Positions 1 to 18,612 of a stretch of DNA of 35,486 nt are shown here, in pieces; positions within the stretch are counted from its first letter, which is position 1; every line of letters starts with the position of its first letter. The DNA lies in NCBI RefSeq assembly GCF_014144865.1, contig NZ_JAALDM010000032.1:1-35486 (forward strand), written 5' to 3'. The notes under the pieces are model-generated. The model was not told where the DNA came from, did not search any database, and saw only the letters and a list, made by a program, of their open reading frames with translations. Origin of the DNA: Dietzia aerolata. Lineage in GTDB: Bacteria; Actinomycetota; Actinomycetes; Mycobacteriales; Mycobacteriaceae. The position numbers were made by a program, and so were the translations under genes.

Positions 1-1064
1 CCCTCCGCCTTGGAGTCGTGGGAGCCCCGCACGAGCCCCATGAACTCTGACATCTGGTTGCGGTGGAAGTGCGGGGGCCGATAGGTGTCCTCGGCCACCA
101 CCCACCGGTCACCGAAGACCGCGAAGTCCATGTTCGGCTGGCCCGGCCGTGGGCCGGGTGAGGTGAGCACGGTGAACACGGACGGGTCCGGGTGGTCCCA
201 CAGGGCGGTGTTGAGTGGGCAGAAATCGTCGAGGTCGAAGACGTACGCGGCGTGGTTGCCGTGCCAGGCCACGATGTCGAGCGGGGAGTGGTCCAGCTCG
301 ACGGACCACCAGCGGCCGCCGAAGCGCTGCCACAGTTCCACCGGCTCCTCGCGGTCCTCGTACCAGGCCACCGGGTAGCGGAAGTGGCGGGCGTCGGCCA
401 GACCGTTCGCGCCGATCGGTCCCAGCTCCGGCAGGGTGAGCGTGGCGCCGTAGTTCTCCAGCACATATCCGGCCGCGTGGCTGCCGATCAGCTCGACGCG
501 GAACCGCACGCCCCGGTTCACCACGGCGAACTCGCCGGGGGAGACGGTCAGGCGGCCGAACTCGGTGAGCACCAGCAGTGGTCCGGTCTGGGGCACGATG
601 AGCAGTTCGCCGTCCGCGTCCACCATGTAGCGGTCCGTCATGGAGGCGGACGCCGTGTACCAGTGGATCCCCACCCCCGTGCGCTGGGCGACGTCCCCGC
701 AGGTGGCGAACGTGCGGATGCCGTCGAGGAAATCGACTCCGGCGGCGGGCACCGGTGGCGGGTTCCACCGCAGCCGGTTGGGGGAGGTGATCCCGCCGGC
801 CAGCGGCGCGGATTCCCATCCGATCCGCTCGGGGCGCTCGCGGAACGCGGTGTGCGCCACCGACGGCCGGATCCGGTAGCTCCAGCTCCGCCGGTTGACC
901 TCCCGCGGTTCGGTGAACGCGCTGCCGGAGTGCTGCTCGGCGTACAGGCCCAGCGGGGCGTGCTGTGGGGAGTTCTGGCGTTTCGGTAGCGCCCCGGCCT
1001 CCGCCTCGGTCTGGTGGTGGCCGGCGAACCCGTGCTGGTAGTCCAGCTGCGGGACCGCGGTCAC
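1..1064 (-). CDS. hmgA: Homogentisate 1,2-dioxygenase (HmgA family), C-terminus cut by window edge
   Basis: Fe(II) ring-cleavage dioxygenase that opens homogentisate to maleylacetoacetate in tyrosine/phenylalanine breakdown; cytoplasmic. About 354 codons are present and the rest lies beyond position 1. Family landmarks run through the reading frame: GALPKRQNSPQ and LYAEQ near the N-terminus, YRIRPS, DGELLIVPQ, GVRFRVEL, YVLENYGA, LGPIGANGLA, DHSPLDIVAWHGN, DHPDPSVFTVLTSP and HRNQMSEFMG. In the last motif the His and the Glu six residues later match the human iron ligands His335 and Glu341; the third ligand (His371) would be outside the window. The GTG start (1062-1064) overlaps the stop of the upstream gene as GTGA, so translation is probably coupled. 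The N-terminus (GFAGHHQTEA where GFGNEHASEA is usual) diverges, so it could be a paralog acting on a related hydroquinone. Family assignment is firm; exact substrate is not. Confidence 0.9.
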   Translation of the reverse strand, partial: MTAVPQLDYQHGFAGHHQTEAEAGALPKRQNSPQHAPLGLYAEQHSGSAFTEPREVNRRSWSYRIRPSVAHTAFRERPERIGWESAPLAGGITSPNRLRWNPPPVPAAGVDFLDGIRTFATCGDVAQRTGVGIHWYTASASMTDRYMVDADGELLIVPQTGPLLVLTEFGRLTVSPGEFAVVNRGVRFRVELIGSHAAGYVLENYGATLTLPELGPIGANGLADARHFRYPVAWYEDREEPVELWQRFGGRWWSVELDHSPLDIVAWHGNHAAYVFDLDDFCPLNTALWDHPDPSVFTVLTSPGPRPGQPNMDFAVFGDRWVVAEDTYRPPHFHRNQMSEFMGLVRGSHDSKAE

Positions 1065-2131
1065 GAGAGGGCCACCATCTCGTGGAGGGTCTGGCCGGTG
1101 TGCTTCTCCTCCTGACCGTCGAGGGTCAGGGTGAGCTCGAAATCCGAGCGGAACCGGAAGTACCCGGGGTGGCCCACGAGCTTCTTGACCAGCTTGTTCA
1201 GCGGCGGGCGGCCCGCCACCGGGATGTCGGAGAGCAGGTCGTGGGCGTGGACGATCTCCTTCGGGGTGAGGGTGAGGTCGATCTTGCCGGGCACCTGCAG
1301 TCGCAGGAAGGACGGGTAGGACCGGTCGGCGATCGGGTTGAACACCGTGGGGCCCTCGGTGATCTCCACCTCGCCCTCGGACAGCAGGACCTCGCGGCCG
1401 CGGGCCACCATGATCGGCTGAGACCAGTGCGAGCCGTAGCGTTCGGTGGTCTCGACCATCGCGTAGATCAGCGAGAGTTCGTCGGTGTAGAGGCGCCCCC
1501 AGTACCACTTGGAGATGATGCGCTTCATGTCGCCGACGCCCCAGTTGTGGTCGTGGTAGCCGCGCCCCGACACCTGGTCGGTGGTGCCGTCGACGGTGAC
1601 GGTGCCCTCGACCCGGGCGCGCGGCGCCCCGACGCACCAGGCGAAGTACTCGCGCTGGGTGTACTTGGTCTGGCCCCTGCCGGGCATCCACGGCGGCACC
1701 TCGGCGTGGAAGGTCAGGTCCACGCCGATCCCGTCCTGCTGGGCCTTGACCCGGTAGACGGGCAGCCCGTCGACCACGTCGACCAGCACCGCGCTGTGGT
1801 GGGCGATCTGCACGTCGACCTTCTCGGTGGAGACGGTCATCTCGGCATCGGTGTGGTGGCGGTTGGACTCCCGGCGCTTCCCGTCAGGGGTGTAGAGGTG
1901 GATCTCCACGCCCGGCTTGCGGCGGACCAGTTCGCGGCTCTGCAGCATCACCACGACGATCCGGCCGTCGTCGAGGTGGGCGTCGAAGTACCAGTGCTCG
2001 AAGGCCTGCTTGTCCTTGTCGAGGTGGGCGGCGTTGTCGGCGAGGGTGACCTCGGTGATCTCGCCGTCGCGGCGGCCGGGGCCGTTCCACGCTTCGACGA
2101 TGTTCAGGGACGGTCCTTGCAGCAGGGTCAT
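1061..2131 (-). CDS. CrtC/AttH-type lipocalin-like protein (carotenoid 1,2-hydratase superfamily)
   Basis: 356 residues, ATG start preceded by a purine-rich GAGAAAGAG. The best landmark is YHDHNWG at residues 192-198, preceded by SGRG, a signature of the hydroxyneurosporene synthase/AttH lipocalin-like family; an EHWYFDAHLDDG-type N-terminal motif sits at about 45-56. No signal peptide or membrane segment is evident. Known family members include CrtC, which adds water across a terminal isoprene double bond, but most actinobacterial members have no assigned reaction. It lies 86 nt downstream of the DUF2236 oxygenase gene and overlaps the hmgA start by 4 nt, so it belongs to this five-gene run. 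A hydratase or isomerase-like step on an oxygenated intermediate is my inference. The specific reaction cannot be read from the sequence. Confidence 0.72.
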   Translation of the reverse strand: MTLLQGPSLNIVEAWNGPGRRDGEITEVTLADNAAHLDKDKQAFEHWYFDAHLDDGRIVVVMLQSRELVRRKPGVEIHLYTPDGKRRESNRHHTDAEMTVSTEKVDVQIAHHSAVLVDVVDGLPVYRVKAQQDGIGVDLTFHAEVPPWMPGRGQTKYTQREYFAWCVGAPRARVEGTVTVDGTTDQVSGRGYHDHNWGVGDMKRIISKWYWGRLYTDELSLIYAMVETTERYGSHWSQPIMVARGREVLLSEGEVEITEGPTVFNPIADRSYPSFLRLQVPGKIDLTLTPKEIVHAHDLLSDIPVAGRPPLNKLVKKLVGHPGYFRFRSDFELTLTLDGQEEKHTGQTLHEMVALS

Positions 2132-2217
2132 CGGTATCTCTTTCTCGGGGCTGGCTGGGGTTCGGGTGGTCTGTTCGGTCGACGATCCAGCGGGTCTGCG
2201 GCGCTGGGCTCAGTGGG

Positions 2218-3540
2218 TCATCGCCGCAGGGCGCCGGAGGCGTCGAAGGCGGCCTCGCGCCCGGCCATCTGGGCCTTGTACCAGTTCTCGCGGTGCCAGC
2301 ACATGACGCGTTCGTGCAGGCGGCCGAGGGGCGGGACCCGGCGGGCCACCTCGACTGCGGAGATGAGCGGGAACCGAACCACGGGGATGAGCGCCCACGG
2401 GAGGGCGGCGGGCATCCGGTAGTTCCGGCGGGTGCCGGGGGCCATGAACAACGCCGAGTAGACACTGTTGATGCGGAAGTTGTAGTGCTCGCGCAGTCGC
2501 TGCAGGCCGGTGTGGCCGTCGCGCGGGGCGAAGGCCTTCGGGTAGGACTCGATGAGTTCCCGGCCGTGCTCACCGGAGTCATGGGAGCGCGACAGGATGG
2601 TCATCAGCAGCATGCGGACGCTGTCGCCGATCGTCTCCGGGTACCACTTCATGCGAACCCCGAGCAGGTGGCCCATGTACTTCTGGAAGTGGATCAGGGC
2701 GCGGATCTCGCGGGGGCTGGTCTGGTAGCCGAGCACCCAGAGCGCGAGTCCCGGGGTGACCGATCCTGCGATGAGCGTGAGGACCATGTAGGTCTGACTG
2801 ATGGGCAGTCCCCACTTCTCGATGTCCCATTCGCCGTGGGAGGCGACGCGGGAGCGGACGGAGACGTGCATGACCCGCACCTTCATCGCGGTGGCGCGGC
2901 CCTGTGAGCCGGGGCGCAGCAGTGCGCCGGGCTCGGAGACGTCGATCCAGAACCGGCAGGTCTCCAGGAAGCGGCGCAGGGCGTTGTCGCCGGCGTAACC
3001 ACCTGCCAGGGACAGCGGGGTCGCGACAGCGGACTCGGTGTAGATCTCCAGGGTCTCGGCGCCGGCGAAGCTGAAGAGCATGGTGCCCCAGCGGCGCCAG
3101 ATCGCTGCGCCCTCCTCGATGAGCGCGGGGTCGACCCAGTCGGGCACCGTCTCGAACTCGGCGAACAACTCCCGCATCGAGTCGGGGACGTGTCCGAGCG
3201 AGTCGATCCCGTCGGTCAGGGCCTGGTCCAGCATCCGCCGGGTCTCCTTGGGTCCCGTCTCACCGTGGTAGACCTCGTCCACGAACCGCTCGGCCACGGG
3301 GTCGCCGGAGAACAGGTCCTCACACACGGCGGCGGCCTGCTCGTCGGTGGGCAGCAGGTCGAAGCCGGTCACCCTGAGCACCGCGGAGCGCAGCTTCTGG
3401 AACGTCGGGTTCTCGCGCCCCTCCCAGTAGGCGAAGCGGGTCGGGCAGCGCACCCCCTCGGGTACGGCCGGGCGGTCGGCACGGATGCCCACCGTCCCGT
3501 CCACGTCGATGGTCACTGAGTCGGGGTTGGTGCGGGTCAT
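2218..3540 (-). CDS. DUF2236 / MpaB-Lcp-like haem oxygenase
   Basis: 440 residues; the ATG at 3538-3540 overlaps the upstream stop as ATGA, so I chose it over far-upstream starts that run through the neighbour. The protein belongs to the oxygenase MpaB / latex-clearing-protein superfamily (DUF2236), b-type haem enzymes of which Lcp cleaves polyisoprene double bonds oxidatively. Visible residues fit: Arg190 and Thr194 (RRFLET) have the spacing of the catalytic Arg/Thr pair of Lcp K30, and His225 in KVRVMHVSVR lies about 31 residues on, like its axial haem histidine (numbering from memory). Hydrophobic helices around residues 150-180 and 250-275 fit the all-helical fold. No clear signal peptide is seen, unlike secreted Lcp, so an intracellular small isoprenoid or lipid substrate is more likely than rubber (inference). 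Confidence 0.8.
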   Translation of the reverse strand: MTRTNPDSVTIDVDGTVGIRADRPAVPEGVRCPTRFAYWEGRENPTFQKLRSAVLRVTGFDLLPTDEQAAAVCEDLFSGDPVAERFVDEVYHGETGPKETRRMLDQALTDGIDSLGHVPDSMRELFAEFETVPDWVDPALIEEGAAIWRRWGTMLFSFAGAETLEIYTESAVATPLSLAGGYAGDNALRRFLETCRFWIDVSEPGALLRPGSQGRATAMKVRVMHVSVRSRVASHGEWDIEKWGLPISQTYMVLTLIAGSVTPGLALWVLGYQTSPREIRALIHFQKYMGHLLGVRMKWYPETIGDSVRMLLMTILSRSHDSGEHGRELIESYPKAFAPRDGHTGLQRLREHYNFRINSVYSALFMAPGTRRNYRMPAALPWALIPVVRFPLISAVEVARRVPPLGRLHERVMCWHRENWYKAQMAGREAAFDASGALRR

Positions 3541-4694
3541 GACTGTCCTCCCTCGTGGCGGGGTGCGTCGGTTGCGGTTGCGGGTGTGGGATCGGCGCCG
3601 AGCCGGCGGTCCATCCAGTCGAGGAGGCGGGCGATCACCTGCTCCAGTCCCTCGGGCTGGTCGACCAGGTAGTGGTTGAGGTGGCGCATCTCCACCAGTT
3701 CGACGTGCGGATCGGCGGACGCCGCCGCCATGAGCCGGGAGTCCTCGGCGAAGGCGGCCTGGTCGCCGAGCAGGCTCATCACCAGGGTCGGGTCGGTGAT
3801 GCGGGGCAGGTCGGTGAGCGCGTCGGCCGCGCTGTGCTCGGTGCTCCAGGTGCTGAGCCAGCTGCGGGCGGTGACGAACCGCGCCAGGCCGCCCGCGGCG
3901 GTGTTGGCGGCCTCGGGATCCCCGTACATCGAGCCCGCTTCGCGGTCGCTCGGGTCGAGGGTGAGGTCGACGAAGCGCGGGTCGGCGGTGGTGCGGTGGA
4001 CCACGAAGCCCCGGTCGGACCCGCCTTCGCGGTCGAGTCGCTCCAGGGCTTCCAGGGCCCGACGGTCGATCCGACGCATCCGTTCGGCCTGGGCCTCGCG
4101 GTAGCGGGCGACGAAGTCCCGGTCCAGCGGTGCGGTGCGGCCGGGGGCGTAGAGGTCGAGTTCGGGGTCGACGGACCACGGGTCATCCTCGTCGGTGACG
4201 GACGGGTCGATCCAGTGGCGTAGTACTCGTGCGCGGCCGGGGTGGGCACCGACGAGCATGACCGCGTCGGCGGCGTCGGGTCCCTCGGCGCGGGACTGGT
4301 GGAAGGTGGCCAGTGAGCCGCCGCCGGAGAAGCCGAGCAGAACCACCTCGTCGAAGCCGAGTTCCTCGCGCATCCACCGGATCCCGGTGCCGAGGTCGGA
4401 GGCGGCGCGTTCCATCTGCAGCGCCGGTTCGTTGTTGGCGTAGCGCGTGTTGAGGCCCATCGCCGGTTGGCCGGCGCGGGCCAGGGCGGCGAGCAGGAAG
4501 TGGCTGAGGAAGTTGGAGGCGGGGTGGCACATCACCACGCCGCGTCGCCGGGACGAGCCCGGTATCTCGACGAGGTTGGCATGCAGTGTCGGGTAGTGGC
4601 GTGAGAGCCCGGAGTGCATCTCGATACGGCCGTCTGTTGCCGGCTCGTAGGGGATGCGTTGGAAGGCGTCGGTGGTCTCGGGTGCGGCGGGCAT
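3537..4694 (-). CDS. Alpha/beta hydrolase
   Basis: 385 residues. The nucleophile elbow GFSGGG puts the catalytic serine at residue 123, after the strand EVVLL. VVMCHPAS at about 53-60 is the oxyanion-loop strand, and RHLNHYL near residue 340 supplies a candidate catalytic histidine. A long insertion between roughly 160 and 270, rich in Asp, Arg and Glu, forms the lid. No signal peptide is visible, so it is cytoplasmic. It starts 1 nt after the multicopper oxidase stop (TGA-C-ATG) and its stop overlaps the oxygenase start, so it is translated as part of the same operon. It could be an esterase or a C-C bond hydrolase acting on a ring- or chain-cleavage product; the sequence does not separate these. 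Confidence 0.82.
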   Translation of the reverse strand: MPAAPETTDAFQRIPYEPATDGRIEMHSGLSRHYPTLHANLVEIPGSSRRRGVVMCHPASNFLSHFLLAALARAGQPAMGLNTRYANNEPALQMERAASDLGTGIRWMREELGFDEVVLLGFSGGGSLATFHQSRAEGPDAADAVMLVGAHPGRARVLRHWIDPSVTDEDDPWSVDPELDLYAPGRTAPLDRDFVARYREAQAERMRRIDRRALEALERLDREGGSDRGFVVHRTTADPRFVDLTLDPSDREAGSMYGDPEAANTAAGGLARFVTARSWLSTWSTEHSAADALTDLPRITDPTLVMSLLGDQAAFAEDSRLMAAASADPHVELVEMRHLNHYLVDQPEGLEQVIARLLDWMDRRLGADPTPATATDAPRHEGGQS

Positions 4695-4695
4695 G

Positions 4696-6618
4696 TCAGG
4701 TCACCGTCCTGTAGGGGAGCATCATGTCGTGGTCCTCGTGGTCGAGGATGTGGCAGTGCCACACGTATCCCTGCAGCGTGTCGCTGCGGTGGTGGGCGGC
4801 GGGCGGGGCGATGGACCCGATGTAGTCGCCACCGAACCGGTCGATGCCGGGGGCCGCCCCGTGGGGGTCCGGGCCACCGTGGTCGCCGTACGCGACGTCC
4901 GCCCCGTGACCGGCCACGTCGCCGGGGAGGGTGACCGCGGCGGGGAACGTGGCGTCGGGGTCGAATCCGAGCTCGTCGGCGGTGGGGAAGTAGATGAGGA
5001 TCCGGGTGACCGAGTTGGGATCGGCGATCACCGTGTCCTTCATCCCGGCCTCCCACGGTTCGGGCTGACGTACCGGGCCCACCACGTACGGGTCCGGGTC
5101 GGGGGTCCACTTGATCCCCGTCGGCGGCTGCGGGTGGTGGGCGGCCATGGCGAGGGTGTTGATGGCCTGCCGTCCGAGGACGCGGAAGTGCACCAGGTGG
5201 ATGTGGATCGGGTGCGGGTCCGGGGTGGCGTTGACGATGTTCCACATCTCGAGCGAGCCCTGGCGGGGCATCTCGATCTGGTCGGTGGTCCACCGCAGGT
5301 TGTTCAGGCTCATCATGGACGGCGGGATCCGCAGGTCGCTGGGCTGGCTGAGCGAGACGTTGCGCACTGCCGAGGGGCGGGCGAGCGGGGCGAGTGCCGC
5401 GGGCTGCAGTGCGCCGCCGCGAAGGGTGGCGGGGATGGGGCCGCCGTGGCCGCGGGCGGTGGTGGCGCGGAACCGCATGAGGTTGGGCAGCCGCCGGGCG
5501 CCGATCTGGGCGGCCTGGGGCGCGGCGGGTTCGGCGTTGAGCAGTTCCACGGTCTCGCCCGGTTCGAGTGTCGAGAAGTCGACGAGGACGTCCGCGCGTT
5601 CGCCGGGCGCGAGGCGGAACCTCTCGACCTTGGCCGGCGCGGGCATGAGGCCGCCCTCCATGCCGATGACCCACATGTCCAGCGGCTTGGACAGGTGCAG
5701 GATCCAGTTGGAGAACGAGGCGGCGTTGACCATGCGTAGTCGGTAGAGACCACGGGCGACCTCGGCGGTGGGCCAGATCTTGCCGTTGACCACGCCGACG
5801 TCGCCCACGGCGCCGCCCTCCCAGTGGCCCTGCGGGACGATCGGGGTGGAACGCATGGACGCCGAGCCGTCGGCGTTCATGATCTTCTCCTGCATGATCA
5901 GCGGGAGTTCGTACTCGCCGGCAGGCAGGCCCAGGGGGTTGTCGGGCAGGCCGGTGTCCCACTGGTCGCGCAGGAGGTAGCCGCCGGCCAGTCCGCCGTA
6001 GACGTTGAGCCGTGTGATCGGCATGGCGTGGTCGTGATACCAGAGGCCCGTGGCGTCCTGGCGGTTGTCGAAGTGGTGGACGTGGCCCTGTCCGGGCAGG
6101 GAGAGCTGCTCGGGGTGGCCGTCGCTGGCGGGCTCGGTGACGGCGCCGTGGAGGTGGAGTGACGTGGGGACCGTGGTCCGGACGGACTCGTCGAGGCCGT
6201 GGAGGCTCGTGTCGATGTCCGCGGCGTGTGGGTGCGCGGTGATCTCGTTGCGGAAGGTCAGGGTGGTCCGGACGCCGCTGTGCGCCTCGATGGTCGGCCC
6301 GAGGTAGCCGGCCGTGCCGTACCCGAGGGTCATCGCGGTGGGCAGGTCGCGGTGGAACCGGTGGGAGCCGGTCCGGGCCGCGAGGTCGATCGCCTCGCCG
6401 GTGAGGACCTGCGGGCGCGGCAGTTCGTCGACGTACGGCTCGAGGTCGGGGGAGTGGAACAGCAGGGGCGAATCGCCCGATGACCCGAACCCCGGTCCGC
6501 CCTCGGCGCGTGTGATCGTCGCGCCGACGATCCCCATCCCCGCGACCCCCGCCGCGGTACCGAGCAGCCGCCGTCGTGTGAGTGCCGGGCCTCGCCGACC
6601 TGCGCCGTCACCGTTCAT
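4696..6618 (-). CDS. Tat-exported multicopper oxidase (laccase / CotA / phenoxazinone-synthase-like)
   Basis: 640 residues, one-electron oxidation of phenols, aminophenols or metals with reduction of O2 to water. All four copper motifs are intact: HLH (His155, His157), HDH (His195, His197), HPIHIH (469-474) and HCHILDHEDHDM, in which Cys622, His627 and Met632 are the type 1 copper ligands. The N-terminus has a twin-arginine signal (TRRRLLG, residues 14-20, then a hydrophobic Ala/Gly stretch), so the enzyme is folded with copper and exported. It is longer than CotA-type laccases, with an extra segment around residues 555-615. A strong Shine-Dalgarno (GGAGG) lies 4 nt before the ATG. It is first in the five-gene minus-strand run, and a possible -10 lies about 35 bp upstream. 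Family call is secure; the physiological substrate is unknown. Confidence 0.93.
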   Translation of the reverse strand: MNGDGAGRRGPALTRRRLLGTAAGVAGMGIVGATITRAEGGPGFGSSGDSPLLFHSPDLEPYVDELPRPQVLTGEAIDLAARTGSHRFHRDLPTAMTLGYGTAGYLGPTIEAHSGVRTTLTFRNEITAHPHAADIDTSLHGLDESVRTTVPTSLHLHGAVTEPASDGHPEQLSLPGQGHVHHFDNRQDATGLWYHDHAMPITRLNVYGGLAGGYLLRDQWDTGLPDNPLGLPAGEYELPLIMQEKIMNADGSASMRSTPIVPQGHWEGGAVGDVGVVNGKIWPTAEVARGLYRLRMVNAASFSNWILHLSKPLDMWVIGMEGGLMPAPAKVERFRLAPGERADVLVDFSTLEPGETVELLNAEPAAPQAAQIGARRLPNLMRFRATTARGHGGPIPATLRGGALQPAALAPLARPSAVRNVSLSQPSDLRIPPSMMSLNNLRWTTDQIEMPRQGSLEMWNIVNATPDPHPIHIHLVHFRVLGRQAINTLAMAAHHPQPPTGIKWTPDPDPYVVGPVRQPEPWEAGMKDTVIADPNSVTRILIYFPTADELGFDPDATFPAAVTLPGDVAGHGADVAYGDHGGPDPHGAAPGIDRFGGDYIGSIAPPAAHHRSDTLQGYVWHCHILDHEDHDMMLPYRTVT

Positions 6619-6652
6619 TACGCCTCCAGATCTCTATGACGCGAGTCACAGT

Positions 6653-6658
6653 ACCCTA
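6653..6658 (-). promoter_or_regulatory. Possible -10 element for the multicopper oxidase operon
   Basis: Read on the minus strand this is TAGGGT, fitting the actinobacterial TANNNT -10 pattern about 35 nt upstream of the oxidase ATG. No convincing -35 is seen. The same few bases contain TACC-CTAC-GGTA (6652-6663) and a plus-strand TATGGT (6662-6667), so divergent promoters may overlap here. Weak evidence. Confidence 0.3.
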
Positions 6659-6772
6659 CGGTATGGTTTGGTGGTGATTCTCGGGGAGGTGGCCGGAGGG
6701 GGCCGGGAAAAGCCACAAGACGAGGACGACGACGACAACACGGCGCGCAGTCGCCGGAAAGTGAGTGCGGAG

Positions 6773-7822
6773 ATGACGGGAACCGGCCAGGGGCGTCCTG
6801 CATGTCCGGTGGAACGATCGGGCGCGGTGGTGCTTCTCGGCTCGGTGCTCATCGCCGTCGCGGCTGCCGTGATTTCGGTGCCGGAGGCGGCCGCACGAGG
6901 GGTCGCCCCACGAGAGGTGGCCACACGAGAGGTCGCCCTCCGGGAGGCTGCTCAACGAGAGGCCGCCCCACGAGCGCTGGGGCAAGGGGCGCCGGACTGC
7001 GACGGCCCGGGCGTGCTGCTCGTGCACGATCTCGCCGAGACCGTCGACTCCTGGGATCCCCTGGCCGCGGACCTCGAGCGGGCCGGATGGTGTCCGGTCC
7101 GGCACGTCTGGGGCAACCCCCGGCCCGGCGACGTCCCGTTGCCTGTCGGTGGTCTCACCGGTGTGGAGTCCGCCGCGATGGATCTGGCCGTGGCCCGGGC
7201 CTGGTTGCCGACCGAACCGGATCGAGCAGAGTCCGGTCCCTCCGTCGACGTTCACACTCGGGCCGGTGACGATGTCGTCGTCGTCGCCAAGGGGATGGGC
7301 GCACTCGTCGTCCAGCGGGCGCTCCAGCTCGCGACCACCGGCACCGCACCCGATTCCGAACCCGCCCCTGATTCCCGCGCCGCCACCCACCCCGGCCCTG
7401 ACTCCCGCGCCGCCGACAGGGTCAGCCACCTGATCACCCTGGGGCCGGTGTGGAACGGCACCAACGTGCTCGGGATCGCGGACATCGAGGACCTCAGTCG
7501 CGAGCTCGGGACGTTCGAGGCGATCCTGGCCTGGGAGAAGACCTGGATGGACCCGCTCTGCGAGGGCTGCCGCGAGGCCGTGCGGGGCTCGGAGCTACTC
7601 GAGACGTTGCACCGCGAGGGAATCCGTAGCCCCGGTGTCGAGTACACGGACATCGCGACCGCCACGGACCTGCTCGTCCACCCGCCGCTCGAACAGTCGC
7701 CCCCGCCAGTCGCGCTGCACGTCGTCCCGCCACCGGACGGTGGGCTTCCCGCCTGGCACGGAGAACTCGGCCGCGACCCCGCCTCGCGCGCTCTGGTCCT
7801 CGACGTGCTCGAGGCGACGTAA
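6773..7822 (+). CDS. Exported lipase-like alpha/beta hydrolase lacking the catalytic serine
   Basis: About 349 residues from the ATG at 6773. A hydrophobic segment (VVLLGSVLIAVAAAVISV, about residues 18-36) followed by Ala-rich sequence looks like a Sec signal or anchor. Then come a repetitive Arg-Glu-Ala linker (residues about 45-65) and a fold resembling secreted class 2 triacylglycerol lipases: VLLVHDLAETVDSWDPLA for the HG-loop region, CEGCREAVRGSELL for the cysteine-containing segment, DIATATDLLV for the acid region and WHGEL for the histidine. The strand that should end in G-H-S-x-G reads VVVVAKGMGAL, so Gly replaces the nucleophile Ser. It is therefore probably not an active esterase, or it uses another residue. 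The start is uncertain: GTG at 6761 or a leaderless GTG at 6674 are alternatives that would lengthen the N-terminus by 4 or 33 residues. Confidence 0.65.
   Translation: MTGTGQGRPACPVERSGAVVLLGSVLIAVAAAVISVPEAAARGVAPREVATREVALREAAQREAAPRALGQGAPDCDGPGVLLVHDLAETVDSWDPLAADLERAGWCPVRHVWGNPRPGDVPLPVGGLTGVESAAMDLAVARAWLPTEPDRAESGPSVDVHTRAGDDVVVVAKGMGALVVQRALQLATTGTAPDSEPAPDSRAATHPGPDSRAADRVSHLITLGPVWNGTNVLGIADIEDLSRELGTFEAILAWEKTWMDPLCEGCREAVRGSELLETLHREGIRSPGVEYTDIATATDLLVHPPLEQSPPPVALHVVPPPDGGLPAWHGELGRDPASRALVLDVLEAT
6895..6975 (+). repeat. Short tandem coding repeats (Arg-Glu-Val/Ala-Ala units)
   Basis: Near-repeats of about 15 bp built on cacgagaggt-gccc / acgagaggccgcc give a peptide of the type PREVATREVALREAAQREAAPR. 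A second, separate duplication at about 7363-7413 (cctga-tcccgcgccgcc twice) gives PDSRAA twice. Both lie within the lipase-like gene, in linker or loop regions. Confidence 0.7.
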
Positions 7823-7879
7823 GGTCAACAGGATGACGACTCGACACGGCCACGAGGGCGGACCAGGTGGTGTGTCCAC

Positions 7880-8470
7880 ATGACCCAGGGCACCGGATGG
7901 ACCGCCCGCCCCGCCACTGCCAGGACCGGCCGGCTCTCGGCGGACGATTGGGCCCGGGCGGGCCTGGACCTGCTGATGACGGAGGGGCGTTCGGCGGTCA
8001 AGATCAGCCGCCTGTGCGCCCATTTTGGCGTGACCAAGGGCAGTTTCTACTGGCATTTCGACGACTTCGACGCCCTCATGGCCGCGATCGCCAGGCTGTA
8101 CTTCTCCCAGGAGATGGATTCCGCACGCGGGCTGGTGACGATGGAGGAGATGCCGCCCGATCAGCGACTCGAGACCATGAGCGCGATGCTGGTCGAGTCC
8201 CGCGCCTGGGAGGGCGAGGCGGCGATCCGCGAATGGGCTCGCGCGGACGAGACGGTCGCCGAAGCGGTGGGCGAGTTGGATCGACGGATCCTGCGCGTCG
8301 TGCACGACGCCTTCGCGGAGCTGGGGTTCTCCGAACGGGAGGCGAGGATCAGGTCCGGCGTGCTCGTCTACGCCGGGATCGGGTTCGTCTACGGGCGATC
8401 CGCCCTCCCCGTGCCCAGCGTGGAGGAGATCCACGACGTCCTAGCTCTCCTGCTCAGGCGGGACGACTGA
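7880..8470 (+). CDS. TetR/AcrR family transcriptional regulator
   Basis: 196 residues. The N-terminal helix-turn-helix lies at about residues 20-63, with recognition region VKISRLCAHFGVTKGSFYWHF typical of TetR repressors. The C-terminal ligand domain is all-helical and not assignable to a ligand class. The ATG at 7880 has AGGTGG nine bases upstream, and an in-frame upstream extension shows no conservation-like features. It is 57 bp downstream of the lipase-like gene on the same strand and converges on the lipid kinase gene 38 bp away. Its target is not visible; the lipase-like gene or the divergent oxidase operon are the nearest candidates. Confidence 0.92.
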   Translation: MTQGTGWTARPATARTGRLSADDWARAGLDLLMTEGRSAVKISRLCAHFGVTKGSFYWHFDDFDALMAAIARLYFSQEMDSARGLVTMEEMPPDQRLETMSAMLVESRAWEGEAAIREWARADETVAEAVGELDRRILRVVHDAFAELGFSEREARIRSGVLVYAGIGFVYGRSALPVPSVEEIHDVLALLLRRDD

Positions 8471-8508
8471 CGCAGGTTGGATGTCTGACTCGACTGCGGC
8501 TGGCGCGG

Positions 8509-9492
8509 TCAGAGCGCGACCCGGACCATCAGGCCCCGGTTCTTGATCCGGGCATTGAATTCGGTCACCGTGCCGCAATCCTCGCCATCGATCTGGAACG
8601 ACGCCGGCTTCTCGAGGATCCGGGCGTGCATTCCCACCCCCTGGCGGAAATCCACCGGCGGATTCCGGCGATACTCCCGCTCCTCGGGCGGAGTGCCCGA
8701 ACCGCGGATCGACCGAACCCGGTGCCGAACCGTGTGCTGGGCCAGAACGGCTCCGGCCTGGGTCCACTCGAGAACGCCTTTCGCGCGCAGCGCCATGACA
8801 TCCAGCTGGCCGTCGTCGATCACCGCGGCCGGCAGGAGCACCATGCCGCCCTGGAGCATGCCGCAGTTCGCCACCAGCAGGGTCCGGGCTTTGGCGTAGG
8901 TGGACTCGCCGTCGTCGAGCGCGTACTCGACCTTGATCCGGTGCCCCCGCAGCAGCGTGTTGGCGAACGCGCCGACGTACGCCAGCCACCCCACCCGCTT
9001 CTTGAGTTGATCGTCTGTGCCGGCGATCATGTCGGCGTCCATGCCCGCCCCGAGCATCACCAGGAACACGTCGTCATGCGTGCGACCGTCGCCGTCCGTG
9101 TATCTGACCTCGCCCAGGTCGATGGACCGGGTCCGGCCGCTCATCGCGACGTACAGGGCCCGGTCGACCGCATCCAGCGGGATATCGAGGTTGCGGGCCA
9201 ACAAGTTGCCGGTTCCCAGGGGGACGACGCCCATGGGGATGGAGCTGCCGATCAGGCCCTGCGCGACGGACCGGATCGTGCCGTCCCCGCCGCAGGCGAT
9301 CACCAGCCCGACCCCTTCGGCTACGGCGTCGGCCGCCTGCCCGGTCCCCGGATCGGCCTCGGTGGTCTCGTAGAACACGGGGTCGGTCCACCCATGGCGC
9401 GAGGCTCGGCTCTCGACACGTCGACGGATCTCGTCGGCGCCTACTTTGATCGGGTTGTAGACGACAGCGACACGGGATGAGGATGGGGCCAC
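8509..9492 (-). CDS. Diacylglycerol kinase family lipid kinase (DagK/YegS-like)
   Basis: 327 residues. The catalytic domain opens with VAVVYNPIKVG, followed by the ATP-site motif ACGGDGTI at about residues 65-72 and VPLGTGNLLARNL at about 90-102, all hallmarks of the DAGK_cat fold. The C-terminal beta-rich domain includes GAGMDADMI and ends with FQIDGED-type strands, as in bacterial YegS/DgkB relatives. It phosphorylates a diacylglycerol or sphingoid-like lipid at the membrane inner face. The start is GTG; an in-frame TGA lies 15 nt upstream, so no longer start exists. No Shine-Dalgarno is seen, while CAGATT lies six bases before GTG, so the transcript may be leaderless. It is transcribed away from the ribosomal genes. 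Confidence 0.92.
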   Translation of the reverse strand: MAPSSSRVAVVYNPIKVGADEIRRRVESRASRHGWTDPVFYETTEADPGTGQAADAVAEGVGLVIACGGDGTIRSVAQGLIGSSIPMGVVPLGTGNLLARNLDIPLDAVDRALYVAMSGRTRSIDLGEVRYTDGDGRTHDDVFLVMLGAGMDADMIAGTDDQLKKRVGWLAYVGAFANTLLRGHRIKVEYALDDGESTYAKARTLLVANCGMLQGGMVLLPAAVIDDGQLDVMALRAKGVLEWTQAGAVLAQHTVRHRVRSIRGSGTPPEEREYRRNPPVDFRQGVGMHARILEKPASFQIDGEDCGTVTEFNARIKNRGLMVRVAL

Positions 9493-9546
9493 TGCACCAA
9501 TCTGTCAGAATCCGGACCGGCCCGCCATTCCCACGTGCCAGCCGAT

Positions 9547-9575
9547 TTGGTAGGCGCGGCAAGTGCCTCTATTCT
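9547..9575 (+). promoter_or_regulatory. Candidate rplJL promoter
   Basis: TTGGTA (9547-9552) and TATTCT (9570-9575) are separated by exactly 17 bp and would start transcription near 9582. That leaves a leader of about 255 nt before rplJ, where autoregulatory structure is expected. Each hexamer matches the housekeeping consensus at four of six positions. Confidence 0.55.
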
Positions 9576-9639
9576 GGTCACCGAAGTTTGAATGCCCGAC
9601 GGACCTGTGTCGCCGGGTGTCTGATCAAGTTTCACCGAA

Positions 9640-9794
9640 GACCGCAGGTCGCCGCTCCCGCCGGGGGCGGTCGAAGGGTCCGAGAGCGCTCGGACGGCCC
9701 GCGCAGGAGAACACCGGTCAGCGTTGGATACAACTGCCGCCCCTCCGGGGTGCGGCCGAGCCTCCACGCCCCGTGCCCCCTGCGCACGGGGCGT
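9640..9794 (+). promoter_or_regulatory. Structured rplJ leader, candidate L10-binding autoregulatory RNA
   Basis: Three nested features lie between the promoter and rplJ. GACCGC (9640-9645) can pair with GCGGTC (9667-9672). GTCCGAG (9678-9684) pairs with CTCGGAC (9689-9695) around a 4-nt loop. ACGCCCCGTGC (9766-9776) pairs perfectly over 11 bp with 9784-9794 around a 7-nt loop, followed by a T-rich stretch TTCTCT. The L10 leader (known from many bacteria) lets L10-L12 repress its own mRNA; the position and the GAAGACCGCAGGTCG segment fit, but the match is by eye and the last hairpin could be an attenuator. Confidence 0.55.
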
Positions 9795-9837
9795 TCGTGT
9801 TTCTCTCGGGCGAGACGAAGCAGAAAGGAGGCGAAAC

Positions 9838-10350
9838 ATGGCAAAGCCCGCCAAGGTCGAGGCCGTTGCGGAGATCAAGGAGCACTTCCAGAGCTCCACG
9901 ACCGCTGTGGTCACCGAGTACCGCGGACTCTCCGTTCCGCAGGTGACCGAACTGCGTAAGGCACTGGGTGAAGGCGCCACGTACACCGTGGCCAAGAACA
10001 CCCTGGTCAAGCGCGCGGCAGCGGAAGCCGGCGTCGAGGGTCTCGATGACCTTCTGTCCGGCCCCACCGCCATCGCGTTCGTCACCGGCGAGGTCGTGGA
10101 TGCCGCCAAGGCGCTCAAGACCTTCGCCAAGGACAACAAGGCGCTCGTCATCAAGGGCGGCATCATGGACGGCGCCCCGCTGTCCGCCACCGACCTTGAG
10201 AAGATCGCCGATCTCGAGTCCCGCGAGGTCCTGCTCGCGAAGCTGGCCGGTGCCCTCAAGGGCAACCAGACCAAGGCCGCCGGCCTGTTCAACGCGCCCG
10301 CCTCGCAGCTGGCACGTCTGTTCGGCGCCCTCCAGGACAAGAAGAACTGA
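9838..10350 (+). CDS. rplJ: 50S ribosomal protein L10
   Basis: 170 residues, the scaffold of the ribosomal stalk that binds 23S rRNA at the L11 region and holds the L7/L12 dimers through its C-terminal helix. It begins [17 protein letters not shown], with [12 protein letters not shown] and [13 protein letters not shown] characteristic of L10. The C-terminal [12 protein letters not shown] is the stalk-binding helix end. The start is ATG 9838 with an AGGAGG Shine-Dalgarno six bases before it; an upstream in-frame GTG/ATG frame exists but runs through the leader hairpins and is not credible. rplL follows after 60 nt, the normal partner. Unlike the classic arrangement, rplK and rplA are not immediately upstream. 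Confidence 0.98.
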
Positions 10351-10410
10351 CAAACCCCACACGCTTCCGGGCCGCTTGACGGCGCCGGGACACAACGAAA
10401 GGACGCCACC

Positions 10411-10800
10411 ATGGCGAAGCTCAGCAACGACGAGCTCCTCGAGGCCTTCAAGGAGATGACCCTTCTCGAGCTGTCCGAGTTCGTGAAGCTGTTCGAGGAG
10501 ACCTTCGAGGTCACCGCTGCTGCTCCGGTTGCCGTCGCGGCCGCCGGTGCCCCGGCTGCCGGCGGCGACGCCGGTGCTGCCGAGCAGGACGAGTTCGACG
10601 TCGTCCTCGAGTCGGCCGGCGACAAGAAGATCGGCGTGATCAAGGTCGTCCGCGAGATCGTCTCGGGCCTGGGCCTCAAGGAGGCCAAGGACCTCGTCGA
10701 GTCCGCTCCCAAGGCTCTGCTGGAGAAGGTCGACAAGGAGGCCGCCGAGGCCGCCAAGACCAAGCTCGAGGAGGCCGGTGCCTCCGTCTCGCTCAAGTGA
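10411..10800 (+). CDS. rplL: 50S ribosomal protein L7/L12
   Basis: 129 residues, multicopy stalk protein that recruits and activates translational GTPases. The N-terminal dimerisation domain ([20 protein letters not shown]) is followed by an Ala/Gly/Pro hinge at about residues 35-57 ([17 protein letters not shown]). The C-terminal domain [22 protein letters not shown] and [12 protein letters not shown] is nearly invariant in the family. A GAAAGGA Shine-Dalgarno precedes the ATG. It is co-transcribed with rplJ and followed by a strong hairpin. Codon use is strongly biased to C-ending codons, as expected for a highly expressed gene. Confidence 0.98.
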
Positions 10801-10820
10801 GCTGACGCACCACCGCTCGT

Positions 10821-10855
10821 CAGGGGCGGTCCGACAGTATTGTCGGGCCGCCCCT
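10821..10855 (+). terminator. Strong hairpin after rplL
   Basis: CAGGGGCGG-T-CCGACA pairs with TGTCGG-G-CCGCCCCTG over 16 bp with one G-U wobble and a GTAT loop. No T-tract follows, which is common for actinobacterial terminators. It separates rplJL from the mce operon. Confidence 0.7.
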
Positions 10856-10974
10856 GCGGCATCTCTGGAGCCGGTTCGCCCCCTTCGATGGCGCGATTTG
10901 CACCGACCCAGCCGATGCGATCTCGCTTAGTAACGGATCAGATGGGCATGTAACAAAGCACATTCGGCGAGCGG

Positions 10975-10980
10975 TAGTTT
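10975..10980 (+). promoter_or_regulatory. Possible -10 of the mce operon promoter
   Basis: TAGTTT about 47 nt before the mceG start fits TANNNT; the only -35-like hexamer, GTAACA at 10950-10955, is 19 bp away. The A+T content rises locally (10926-10982) compared with its surroundings, as expected for a promoter. Weak evidence; the rest of 10856-11026 shows nothing else. Confidence 0.35.
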
Positions 10981-11026
10981 ACAGTGACCGTGGCCACAAA
11001 CGCGGGCTGAAGTGAGGAGTGCTGAC

Positions 11027-12127
11027 GTGGGTGTCGAGGTTTCCGTCGAAGGACTGACCAAGTCTTTCGGCTCACAGAAGATCTGGGAGGACGTTACGTT
11101 CACCCTTCCCGAGGGAGAGGTCAGTGCTCTGCTCGGCCCCTCGGGTACAGGTAAGTCGGTCTTTCTCAAGTCGCTGATCGGCCTCCTGAGGCCTGAGCGC
11201 GGCAAGATCATCATCGACGGCACCGACATCCTCCAGTGCACCGCCAAGGAGCTCTACGAGGTTCGTAAGCTGTTCGGCGTCCTCTTCCAGGACGGGGCCC
11301 TGTTCGGCTCGATGGACCTCTACGACAATGTCGCGTTCCCGCTGCGGGAGCACACGCGCAAGTCGGAGTCCGAGATCCGCAACATCGTCATGGAGAAGCT
11401 CGAGCTGACCGGCCTGATGGGGGCCGAGGGCAAGCTCCCCGGCGAGATCTCCGGTGGTATGCGTAAACGCGCCGGCCTCGCGAGAGCGCTCGTGCTGGAC
11501 CCCGAGATCATCCTCGTCGACGAGCCGGACTCCGGTCTGGACCCGGTTCGTACGACCTATCTCGCGCAGCTCCTCATCGACATCAACGCGCAGATCGATG
11601 CCACAATCCTCATCGTGACGCACAACATCAACCTCGCCCGTACGGTCCCGGACAACCTGGGCATGCTCTACCGCAAGCGCCTCGTCATGTTCGGCCCCCG
11701 TGAGGTTCTGCTCACCAGCGAGGAACCGTCGGTGCGGCAGTTCCTCCGTGGTTCCAAACTCGGCCCCATCGGCATGTCGGAGGAGAAGGACGACGCCCAG
11801 ATGCGGGCGGAGCTCGAGCAGGCCGAGGCGGGGCACAACGACGGCTCCCCGGGCGAAGACGAGCTCCGCGGAGTTCCGGCCCAGATGCAGCCCACCCCGG
11901 GCGGCCCGGTGCGCCAGGGCGAACTGCGGCGCGAGAAGCGCGTCGCCGAGATGCTCGACACCTTGCCTCCGGAGGCGCAGTCCGCCATCCGCGAGGAGTG
12001 GGCCGCCCGCGGTCACGGCAACGGCTCGACCCCCGGTGCGGTCCCCGCGGGAGCGGCCGCCGGGGCCAGTGGAGACTCCGCCTCCGGTGCGGGACTCGAC
12101 GACCACTATGGTTCTGCGGAGCGCTGA
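11027..12127 (+). CDS. mceG: Mce transporter ATPase MceG (Mkl)
   Basis: 366 residues, ABC ATPase that powers Mce lipid import at the inner face of the membrane. Walker A GPSGTGKS is at 37-44, signature ISGGMRKR at 141-148, Walker B ending in VDEP at 164-167, and the switch histidine (VTHN) at 199. The sequence is very close to mycobacterial Mkl, including the SLIGLLRPERG region and GPIGMSEEKD. After about residue 250 comes a C-terminal extension of about 115 residues, mostly charged then Gly/Ala/Ser-rich; such a tail is typical of MceG. I start at GTG 11027 because GAGGAG lies seven bases before it and the protein then aligns with mycobacterial starts; GTG 11012 is the alternative. The next gene, yrbEA, is 29 nt downstream. 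Confidence 0.95.
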   Translation: MGVEVSVEGLTKSFGSQKIWEDVTFTLPEGEVSALLGPSGTGKSVFLKSLIGLLRPERGKIIIDGTDILQCTAKELYEVRKLFGVLFQDGALFGSMDLYDNVAFPLREHTRKSESEIRNIVMEKLELTGLMGAEGKLPGEISGGMRKRAGLARALVLDPEIILVDEPDSGLDPVRTTYLAQLLIDINAQIDATILIVTHNINLARTVPDNLGMLYRKRLVMFGPREVLLTSEEPSVRQFLRGSKLGPIGMSEEKDDAQMRAELEQAEAGHNDGSPGEDELRGVPAQMQPTPGGPVRQGELRREKRVAEMLDTLPPEAQSAIREEWAARGHGNGSTPGAVPAGAAAGASGDSASGAGLDDHYGSAER

Positions 12128-12156
12128 GTCACTTACAAGGACCGGGGGGAGAATAA

Positions 12157-12987
12157 ATGGCGGAGGGTGCAACCCGACAGCCAGAGGAGAAGGTCGGACT
12201 CTCCGCCGCTGATATGGGCGGGGGGATACGGACCGCGATCGGCCAGGCCGGTGCGGTGTTCCGACTGTTCCTCGAGGTGCTCAGGGGGATATTCAAGCGG
12301 CCGTTCCAGTTCCGCGAGTTCATCGAGCAGTCCTGGTTCATCGCGTCTGTAACGATCCTTCCGTCTGCGCTCGTCGCGATCCCGTTCGGAGCGGTCGTGG
12401 CCATGCAGACCGGCTCACTCGTTCAGCAGCTGGGTGCTGAGGCGTACACGGGCGCGACAGGCGTCCTGGCGGTCGTTCAGCAGGGTGCGCCACTGGTGAC
12501 CTCGCTGCTCATCGCCGGCGCCGCGGGCTCCGCGGTCGCTGCGGACCTCGGTGCCCGCAGCATCCGTGAGGAGCTCGACGCGATGCGCGTGCTCGGCATT
12601 GATCCGGTGCAGCGTCTCGTCGTGCCGCGCGTGCTCGGAATGATGCTGGTGGCGGTGCTGCTCAACGGACTCGTCTCGATCGTCGGAATCTCCGGCGGGT
12701 ACGTGTTCAACATCCTCCTGCAGGGCGGCACCCCAGGCGCCTACCTCATGTCGTTCGGTGCTCTCGCACAGCTGCCGGACTTCATCATGGCGTCGATCAA
12801 GGCTCTGGTCTTCGGGTTGATCGCCGGCGTCGTGGCCTCCTATTGCGGCATGAACCCCAAGGGTGGGCCCAAGGGCGTCGGTGACGCCGTCAACCTGGGC
12901 GTGGTCGTGACCTTCCTCCTGCTGTTCTTCGCCAACCTGATCCTCACGGCGATGTACCTGCAGATCGTTCCGCCGAAGGGGTCGTAA
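12157..12987 (+). CDS. yrbEA: Mce permease YrbEA (MlaE family)
   Basis: 276 residues, one half of the permease pair of the Mce lipid importer in the plasma membrane. An N-terminal interfacial helix around FRLFLEVLRGIFKRPFQF is followed by about five hydrophobic segments (roughly 60-85, 100-125, 160-190, 215-230, 245-270). The cytoplasmic coupling motif REELDAMRVLGIDP at about 127-140 is the MlaE signature that contacts the ATPase. Its stop codon TAA abuts the next ATG with no gap (TAAATG), so the two permease genes are translated together. A GGGGGGAG Shine-Dalgarno precedes the ATG. Confidence 0.95.
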   Translation: MAEGATRQPEEKVGLSAADMGGGIRTAIGQAGAVFRLFLEVLRGIFKRPFQFREFIEQSWFIASVTILPSALVAIPFGAVVAMQTGSLVQQLGAEAYTGATGVLAVVQQGAPLVTSLLIAGAAGSAVAADLGARSIREELDAMRVLGIDPVQRLVVPRVLGMMLVAVLLNGLVSIVGISGGYVFNILLQGGTPGAYLMSFGALAQLPDFIMASIKALVFGLIAGVVASYCGMNPKGGPKGVGDAVNLGVVVTFLLLFFANLILTAMYLQIVPPKGS

Positions 12988-13845
12988 ATGGCGATTCATA
13001 CCGATGTCGGGCCCGGCCGGGCCAGGCTGCGGGCCCTGGTCCGTGGCCCCATTTCCTCGTTCGACTCGCTGGGCGACCAACTCGCCTTCCACCTACGCGC
13101 GATCGGCTGGATTCCGCAGACCCTCGTCCACTACCGTCACGAGGTCCTCCGGCTCATCGCAGAGGTGACCTTCGGCGTCGGCGTGCTCGCCGTTCTCGGC
13201 GGCACCATCGGCGTCATCGTCATGATGAGTGGTTTCACCGGCGTCGTCGTCGGTCTGCAGGGCTACGCTGCCCTGGACCAGATCGGCAGCTCGGTCCTCA
13301 CCGGCTTCCTCTCGGCGTACGTCAACACCCGTGAGGTGGCCCCGGTCGTGGCGGCCCTCGCACTGTCGGCCACCGTCGGATGTGGATTCACCGCTCAGCT
13401 GGGCGCCATGCGGATCTCCGAGGAGATCGACGCACTGGAAGTGATGGCGATCCCGAGCGTCCCGTATCTGGTCACCACACGGATCATCGCCGGCTTCATC
13501 GCGGTTATCCCGCTCTACGTGGTCGGACTCCTGGCGTCGTATCTGGCGACCCGAGGGGTTAACACGATGGTGCAAGGTCAATCGACGGGCTCATTCGACC
13601 ACTATTTCCATCTCTTCCTGCCACCTGAAGACGTCATATATTCGTTCATCAAGGTGATCATCTTCGCGTTCGTGCTGGTGATGATCCACTGCTTCTACGG
13701 GTTCACCGCCTCCGGCGGTCCCGCGGGAGTCGGTGTCGCCGTGGGCCGCGCGGTCCGGACGACGATCGTCGTGGTGGCCATCCTCAACTTCTTCGTCGGA
13801 CTCGCCCTCTGGGGCACGACCACGACTGTGCGGGTGGCCGGATGA
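12988..13845 (+). CDS. yrbEB: Mce permease YrbEB (MlaE family)
   Basis: 285 residues, the second permease subunit. It shares the MlaE fold with YrbEA: an N-terminal amphipathic region, hydrophobic segments at about 65-95, 110-140, 165-190, 220-245 and 255-280, and the coupling motif SEEIDALEVMAIPSVPYLVTTR at about 145-166, where MAIP replaces the LGIDP of YrbEA as is usual for the B subunit. The start directly follows the YrbEA stop and its own stop overlaps the mceA start as ATGA. Confidence 0.95.
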   Translation: MAIHTDVGPGRARLRALVRGPISSFDSLGDQLAFHLRAIGWIPQTLVHYRHEVLRLIAEVTFGVGVLAVLGGTIGVIVMMSGFTGVVVGLQGYAALDQIGSSVLTGFLSAYVNTREVAPVVAALALSATVGCGFTAQLGAMRISEEIDALEVMAIPSVPYLVTTRIIAGFIAVIPLYVVGLLASYLATRGVNTMVQGQSTGSFDHYFHLFLPPEDVIYSFIKVIIFAFVLVMIHCFYGFTASGGPAGVGVAVGRAVRTTIVVVAILNFFVGLALWGTTTTVRVAG

Positions 13846-16366: not shown

Positions 16367-17385
16367 GTAAGAAAAAGGCAGGGGAACCCCGGTTCTCCAA
16401 CGCACTGATCGGTGCCGTCGGCATCGTGGTGATCCTCGCCCTGACCATCGGGTCGTTCATGCTCGACGCGATACCGATCGTGGGTGCCGGACCTAAATAC
16501 AAGGCCTACTTCTCGGAAGCGGCCGGCCTCAGCGACGGCAACGAGGTCCGTGTCGCCGGGGTGAAGGTCGGCGTGGTCACCGAAGTGGAGCTCGACGGTG
16601 ACAAGGTCGCCGTCGGGTTCCGCGCCAAGGACGTGTGGCTCGGCGACGACACCCGGGCCAGCATCCAGATCAAGTCTGTGCTCGGCCAGAAGTTCCTCGC
16701 ACTGACACCCGCGGGCAACAACGAGCTGGACCGCGATGACCCCATTCCGCTCGAGCGGACCGTGGCCCCGTACGACGTCGTGACCGCGTTCTCCTCGGCA
16801 GCCGAGACCCTCGACGAGATCGACGATGCCAAACTCGCAGAGAGCCTCGACACCCTCACCGATGCGATGGAAGCCTCGCCCGAGGAATTCCGCAGCGCCG
16901 TTGACGGGGTCAGCCGACTCTCGCAGACCATTTCCAGTCGCGACGAGGAACTGCGACAGCTTCTCGAGGCCACCCGGACGAGCTCCGAGATCCTGGCGGA
17001 ACGCAATGACGACTTCCGTCGCCTCATCACGGGAACCGGCCAGCTGCTCGGCGAGCTCAACGCACGTTCGGAGAGCCTCAAGCTCGTCCTGGCCGCCACT
17101 CGCGGACTGTCCGCTGAGCTCCGGATCCTCGTGGCCGAGAACGAGGCAGAGTTCGGACCGACACTGGACAGTCTTGATTCGACGCTGAGAATCCTCACCG
17201 ACCACGAAGAACAACTGAAGAAGTCGATCCACAATCTCGCCCCGTTCTACCGGCTGTACGCCAACATGCTGGGCACGGGCCGGTGGTTCGACTCCGTGGT
17301 TACCAACCTGCTTCCGCCTGGCGCGCCTGAGCCGCCCTTCTACCCGGGTGCCCGTACCCCCGCACGACTGAGTGGGATCAACTGA
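16363..17385 (+). CDS. mceC: Mce family protein MceC
   Basis: 340 residues from a GTG start that overlaps the mceB stop. Membrane helix at about 14-36 (ALIGAVGIVVILALTIGSFM), MlaD domain at about 45-125 (NEVRVAGVKVGVVTEV, SVLGQKFLALTP), and a helical arm of about 150 residues rich in Glu, Arg and Leu. It is the shortest of the six Mce proteins here and lacks a Pro-rich tail of any length. The stop and the mceD start overlap by one base (TGATG). Confidence 0.93.
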   Translation: MSKKKAGEPRFSNALIGAVGIVVILALTIGSFMLDAIPIVGAGPKYKAYFSEAAGLSDGNEVRVAGVKVGVVTEVELDGDKVAVGFRAKDVWLGDDTRASIQIKSVLGQKFLALTPAGNNELDRDDPIPLERTVAPYDVVTAFSSAAETLDEIDDAKLAESLDTLTDAMEASPEEFRSAVDGVSRLSQTISSRDEELRQLLEATRTSSEILAERNDDFRRLITGTGQLLGELNARSESLKLVLAATRGLSAELRILVAENEAEFGPTLDSLDSTLRILTDHEEQLKKSIHNLAPFYRLYANMLGTGRWFDSVVTNLLPPGAPEPPFYPGARTPARLSGIN

Positions 17386-18611: not shown

Positions 18612-18612
18612 G

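Follow-up and report, generated by a model that had tools for sequence, protein, structure and literature searches.

Why are a laccase, a heme oxygenase of the Lcp type and a homogentisate dioxygenase encoded side by side? The question is raised by a stretch of 35,486 bp from Dietzia aerolata (RefSeq assembly GCF_014144865.1, contig NZ_JAALDM010000032.1), here called the window, whose first 6,618 bp carry five minus-strand genes that an earlier note, made from the sequence alone, had assigned to one oxidative pathway. Our analysis suggests that these genes belong to a TetR-controlled regulon that would import and degrade a hydrophobic prenylated (hydro)quinone or chromanol, a reading to which we give a probability of about 0.5. 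The idea of a single pathway gained from a common operator, from the joint gain and loss of the dioxygenase, a hydrolase and an aldehyde dehydrogenase (ALDH), from linkage to an Mce lipid importer and from the separation of the dioxygenase from tyrosine catabolism; it lost ground to the many Nocardia that hold the core genes only.

Gene organization and the larger unit

The genes and the elements next to them are the following:

1..1064, minus strand: homogentisate 1,2-dioxygenase (HGD), cut by the contig edge, GTG start at 1064; TIGR01015 family, His350 clade
1061..2131, minus strand: CrtC/AttH-like lipocalin-type protein; PF07143
2218..3540, minus strand: DUF2236/MPAB_Lcp_cat heme oxygenase; PF09995, Lcp fold of the predicted structure
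3537..4694, minus strand: alpha/beta hydrolase (ABH); profile match, catalytic residues, pairing with HGD
4696..6618, minus strand: multicopper oxidase (MCO), a CotA-type, Tat-exported laccase; Tat motif TRRRLLG, copper motifs
6652..6663, no strand: core TACCCTACGGTA of a palindromic operator with the extended consensus ACCATACCNTANGGTATGGT; 34 bp before the start codon of MCO
6689..7822, plus strand: hyp377, a predicted secreted protein; no Pfam match, true start maybe near 7013
7880..8470, plus strand: TetR-family regulator, presumed binder of the operator; family match

Profile matches confirmed the five families that had been named for this minus-strand run, in the order MCO, ABH, DUF2236, CrtC-like and HGD. 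Its description as nearly gapless holds at three junctions (MCO/ABH +1, ABH/DUF2236 -4 and CrtC/HGD -4 bp) and fails at DUF2236/CrtC, where 86 bp intervene; the five genes are, as predicted from their sequence, a tight operon. Base 1 of the window is the end of the contig (C249), which comes from a metagenome-assembled genome (MAG) of 339 contigs that is 88% complete.

The DUF2236 protein was used as the sole query for relatives, which yielded 65 loci; genes were predicted with a simple codon-based caller and clustered. Relatives in Dietzia, Rhodococcus, Nocardia and Gordonia supplied further members, namely the ALDH, a CaiB CoA-transferase, an Mce lipid importer and the TetR regulator. The true unit exceeds the window and also comprises the ALDH, CaiB, a cognate Mce operon, TetR and a common operator. 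The intact Dietzia version is found in the complete genome of Dietzia G017 (loci L084/L085), where the order is TetR, hyp377, MCO, ABH, DUF2236, CrtC, HGD, ALDH, CaiB, an HMG-CoA-lyase-like gene and then an Mce operon; this relative suggests what would follow HGD past position 1, where the earlier note had advised looking. In several full-cluster loci, hyp377 stands between the operator and TetR.

Gene content across the 65 loci was graded. A core of TetR, DUF2236 and CrtC was common, with or without MCO, while HGD, ABH and ALDH all accompanied DUF2236 and CrtC in 13/65 loci, a recurrence that speaks against a chance set. HGD never occurred without both ABH and ALDH (Fisher P about 1e-12, related loci not being independent), and on the DUF2236 tree 6/6 independent pairs changed together for HGD-ABH (P = 0.031) and likewise 6/6 for HGD-ALDH (P = 0.031). 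With ABH upstream and HGD-ALDH downstream of DUF2236, a single insertion of neighboring genes does not account for their occurring together. The candidate explanation of chance neighbors was rejected on the co-occurrence, the tree-paired gain and loss, and the operator.

The gene contents point to two modules, a widespread core and a ring-opening block of HGD, ABH and ALDH that is added or lost. For example, Nocardia vaccinii (L017) retains an HGD remnant (12359-12868, residues 7-178) after CrtC, with ABH and ALDH gone, which shows the ring-opening block in decay. The position of HGD in the cluster of Gordonia L046 is taken by a short, distantly related HGD-like gene. No DUF2236 relative was found at E 1e-40 among plasmid records. 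A contig titled Bifidobacterium breve MAG (L056) carries DUF2236-CrtC-TetR-MCO and the operator, a set otherwise seen in mycolate actinobacteria, and probably reflects a binning or naming error.

Operator and regulator

The extended palindrome, with the core TACCN4GGTA, recurs upstream of the catabolic and Mce operons across genera. With the window excluded, the intergenic DNA upstream of TetR, MCO, DUF2236, ABH and their neighbors (21 kb) held 24 copies of the core and the other intergenic DNA (211 kb) held 4, an enrichment of about 60-fold near cluster genes; five control palindromes were flat in the same comparison. The palindrome also precedes the Mce operons of Dietzia G017 and Rhodococcus L213, and both operons in L032 (genome G071). 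A genome-wide operator scan allowing one mismatch performed overall no better than its reversed control. A TetR relative was present in 40/65 DUF2236 loci. Gene content, co-inheritance, linkage to Mce, the common operator, folds and catalytic residues can be read from the sequences; that the adjacent TetR binds the palindrome we infer. In L210 (G071), a further copy of the operator lies at 9973, upstream of small Mce-associated genes.

Laccase and Mce importer

All the copper-ligand motifs of a laccase (HxH, WxHDH, HxxHxH and HCHxxxHxxxxM) are present in MCO, which aligns to 9bd5/1gsk with E 7e-77. In seven relatives (L210/L032, L211, L212, L215, L216, L217 and L218), MCO is the first gene of an MCO-YrbEA-YrbEB-Mce operon, and these operons adjoin the catabolic operon. 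In five of these loci (L212, L215, L216, L217 and L032) a 4-bp overlap of MCO with YrbEA makes the laccase a member of the import operon. In Rhodococcus, Nocardia, G026 and Gordonia the order, with local variation, is a divergent TetR, the operator, MCO, YrbEA, YrbEB and MceA-F, followed by two small opposite genes and then ABH, DUF2236, CrtC, HGD and ALDH. Outside Dietzia, a flanking Mce operon accompanied 9/13 HGD loci against 2/48 others (P = 2e-6, several flanks ending early), and tree-independent pairs gave the same trend, which was not significant.

Behind the Mce operon of L210 (G071), a second MCO lies with CaiB and an HMG-CoA-lyase-like gene (9456-14167). In the window itself (region 9724-30770), a complete Mce operon (12157-21134) and the gene of an MlaF/MceG-like ATPase lie between rplJ-rplL and rpoB-rpoC, and other Dietzia (L003, L005, L006 and G017) likewise have the Mce genes at this position next to the cluster. 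The Mce operon of the window was rejected as the cognate importer; it is a generic Dietzia locus, also present in L005 and L006, which have no HGD block, whereas G017 does contain the cognate operon.

Enzyme families of the cluster

The DUF2236 protein scored 58.7 bits on PF09995 (cut-off 23) and gave a profile match to 5o1l (E 1.5e-12). Its predicted structure (pLDDT 89) superimposed on Lcp K30 with Z 26.0 and a root-mean-square deviation of 3.8 over 338 aligned residues. The heme ligand His225, together with R190 and T194, was invariant in 69/69 DUF2236 proteins, these being the equivalents of Lcp H198, R164 and T168. We propose, with the structural model as a guide, that this protein is an Lcp/MpaB-type heme oxygenase that would cleave a prenyl side-chain C=C bond. 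A precedent is the fungal MpaB of mycophenolic acid biosynthesis, an enzyme that cuts a meroterpenoid at a prenyl C=C (PMC11934065), and a b-type heme and C=C cleavage in nitrile rubber have been reported for a bacterial MpaB-family protein (PMC12724181).

The HGD of the window, truncated by the contig edge, comprises 354 of about 435 residues and scores 488.5 bits on TIGR01015, while the full-length G017 protein exceeds the cut-off (578.9 against 510.75 bits). The iron ligands His335, Glu341 and His371 and the catalytic His292 (human numbering) are kept in full-length cluster HGDs; position 371 falls beyond the edge of the window. All 17 HGDs from the clusters fall into a single clade (support 100/99) and carry His at the position of human Tyr350 (Pseudomonas Tyr346), in place of the canonical Tyr kept in the human, Pseudomonas and FAH-linked long HGDs. 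In the sequences compared, His350 marks the cluster clade only. Tyr350 belongs to an active-site loop and presumably contacts the substrate.

Each HGD-cluster genome examined had one HGD over the TIGR01015 cut-off, the cluster copy, which in the window is truncated and reaches 488 bits. Rhodococcus and Nocardia with the cluster have an additional short HGD-like gene beside fumarylacetoacetase (FAH), the same arrangement as the annotated hmgA-hmgB of R. ruber (PMC6498646). Neither HPPD nor FAH gave a match over cut-off in G000, G017 or G026; G017 is a complete chromosome, in which a weak generic FAA-hydrolase-like match remains. The cluster HGD thus appears detached from tyrosine catabolism.

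In ABH, Ser123, Asp311 and His341 are invariant. Homologues of ABH are immediate neighbors of distinct HGD-like genes in five other lineages, without DUF2236, and no HGD was seen with both ABH and FAH adjacent, the two types of neighbor being mutually exclusive. Since ABH stands beside HGD-like genes and never together with FAH, we propose that it takes the place of FAH and hydrolyzes a C-C bond once the ring is open. One of the five lineages, L174 (G233, another genome of the family), also has CaiB and an HMG-CoA-lyase-like gene beside the pair. Its cluster at 4905-11670 consists of TetR, an acyl-CoA-dehydrogenase-type gene, an F420H2-dependent quinone reductase, a short HGD-like gene, ABH, CaiB (with 70% identity to that of Dietzia) and the HMG-CoA-lyase-like gene, and resembles a distinct pathway for opening hydroquinone rings. 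In two genomes from a different family (L167, 6291-9675; L168, 6742-10045), a short HGD-like gene, ABH and an acyl-CoA dehydrogenase form one run, again an HGD-ABH pair without FAH.

The CrtC-like protein, a PF07143 member, is proposed to be a hydratase or dehydratase acting on an isoprene unit. The best named family of the ALDH is the Rhodococcus phenylacetaldehyde dehydrogenase StyD.

Proposed pathway

Put together, these predicted functions would give the following route. The exported laccase would oxidize the phenolic head outside the membrane, the lipid would be imported by the Mce transporter, and the CrtC-like protein would set the alkene by hydrating or dehydrating an isoprene unit. 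DUF2236 would then cut the first prenyl C=C bond, converting Ar-CH2-CH=C(CH3)R to an arylacetaldehyde (Ar-CH2-CHO) and a methyl ketone, and the phenylacetaldehyde-dehydrogenase-like ALDH would yield homogentisate or a substituted homogentisate. The His350-type HGD would open the ring, ABH would take the part of fumarylacetoacetase and hydrolyze the C-C bond of the opened product, and CaiB and the HMG-CoA-lyase-like enzyme would carry out the CoA steps. Oxidation of the arylacetaldehyde to a homogentisate-type acid would supply what an HGD needs, and the scheme would thereby unite families with no other obvious connection. For tocopherols, a weaker case, the laccase might form the tocopherylquinone, and a CrtC-type dehydration of its tertiary alcohol might provide the needed alkene.

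The prenylated hydroquinone suggested as substrate in the earlier note fits every family, and the ALDH completes its route to a homogentisate-type acid; a substrate of this class (vitamin E or plastoquinol type) is plausible, and stays a prediction, as does each reaction. Tentatively, at somewhat less than even odds, the cluster may represent a dedicated bacterial pathway that consumes prenylated quinols and chromanols (plastoquinol, tocopherols, tocotrienols, geranylhydroquinones) with laccase and Mce import, Lcp-type trimming, a His350 HGD and ABH for FAH. With the same reserve, that pathway could be roughly the reverse of plastoquinone/tocopherol biosynthesis from homogentisate.

Several observations weigh against the proposed route. 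DUF2236 lacks the distal Lys167 and Glu148 of rubber oxygenase proper, with Glu193 at the K167 position in 69/69 proteins and Thr174 at the E148 position in most. The CrtC-like protein is a weak family match (37.1 bits on PF07143 against 22.5, and 27.6 against 400 on the hydratase NCBIfam equivalog), the ALDH lies under the StyD cut-off (605 against 800 bits), and the predicted structure of ABH (pLDDT 71) does not separate a C-C hydrolase from an esterase and fits any esterase. The saturated phytyl chain of tocopherol would need prior dehydration. The cluster has no quinone reductase as a constant, dedicated member; an NMO-family gene near some Rhodococcus clusters is a candidate only. The 88%-complete assembly from which the window comes yielded no ALDH, CaiB or cognate MceA; this MAG may have missed the ALDH, CaiB and cognate Mce genes, or the source genome may lack them. 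Most Nocardia and some Dietzia (L003, L004) hold TetR-DUF2236-CrtC, with or without the laccase, and lack HGD, ABH and ALDH, which is in part the pattern that the earlier note had said would break the pathway idea. Since many Nocardia retain this core without the ring-opening block, DUF2236 has a role independent of HGD.

Alternative explanations

The same regulon could serve another substrate, such as an alkyl- or alkenyl-hydroquinone, a phenylpropanoid or a lignin-related oil, with DUF2236 acting like t-anethole oxygenase on an aryl side-chain alkene. The t-anethole oxygenase is the second structural match of the DUF2236 model (Z 18.3), any arylacetaldehyde would suit a StyD-like ALDH, and ABH is equally compatible with esterases. 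However, a long isoprenoid lipid is what the CrtC-type protein and the Mce importer suggest, and t-anethole-type cleavage beside the ring would give a benzaldehyde, which would not feed an HGD. We regard this explanation as rather unlikely.

It is less probable still that the locus joins two loose modules without a common substrate, TetR-MCO-DUF2236-CrtC for the turnover or detoxification of a quinone, menaquinone or carotenoid, and HGD-ABH-ALDH as a separate aromatic pathway. The core-only Nocardia and Dietzia loci agree with such a division, as does the pairing of ABH with HGD-like genes away from DUF2236 in five lineages. Yet one operator precedes everything, HGD, ABH and ALDH flank DUF2236-CrtC on both sides and nevertheless move together, and in L052 and L054 the genes for DUF2236 and HGD share 4 bp. 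An ordinary tyrosine-homogentisate gene placed by chance in an unrelated operon is highly improbable, although the G017 HGD passes TIGR01015 and keeps its iron ligands, given a complete Dietzia chromosome without HPPD or FAH over cut-off, a separate HGD-like gene beside FAH in Rhodococcus and Nocardia with the cluster, and His350 confined to the cluster clade.

Comparison with known systems and implications

The import-and-degrade regulon proposed here resembles the Mce4 steroid catabolon of Rhodococcus and Mycobacterium, whose regulator KstR belongs to the TetR family, in combining such a regulator with an Mce lipid importer and the oxygenase-based, ring-opening catabolism of the imported lipid. 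Mce4 takes up steroids (PMC6498646). The present cluster differs in having another importer operon, led by a laccase, and an Lcp-type oxygenase, a CrtC-like protein and HGD in place of steroid-ring enzymes; no steroid-ring catabolic genes were recognized beside the Mce operon in the flanks examined. With the Lcp/MpaB family (PF09995), to which MpaB and t-anethole oxygenase also belong, the cluster DUF2236 shares the fold (Z 26.0 to Lcp) and the proximal heme His, Arg and Thr, and it differs in showing no evident signal peptide, in Glu193 for K167 and in its place in a catabolic operon with HGD and Mce. The homogentisate pathway (HPPD-HmgA-HmgB/FAH) is similar in its dioxygenase family, iron ligands and the homogentisate-type central intermediate proposed here, whereas the cluster has no HPPD/FAH partner in Dietzia, His for Tyr350, and ABH at the place expected of FAH. 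Finally, StyD of Rhodococcus styrene catabolism, which converts an arylacetaldehyde to an arylacetate, is the named family closest to the cluster ALDH, which falls short of its cut-off as given above, and no styrene monooxygenase genes were seen nearby.

No description of this gene set, or of bacterial prenylquinol/tocopherol catabolism, was found in the open-access literature, in line with the earlier note, which knew of no pathway with this set. All the parts come from known families; what would be new is an apparently undescribed pathway in an Mce-linked, TetR-controlled regulon. Plants and algae contain prenylated quinols and tocopherols in abundance. If the proposed reading is true, Mce4 would be joined by a second catabolic Mce importer to which a substrate can be assigned, a DUF2236 oxygenase would have a part in catabolism, and a homogentisate-type ring would be opened without tyrosine catabolism or fumarylacetoacetase. 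The cluster would also offer a candidate regulator/operator pair with which the substrate could be tested quickly.

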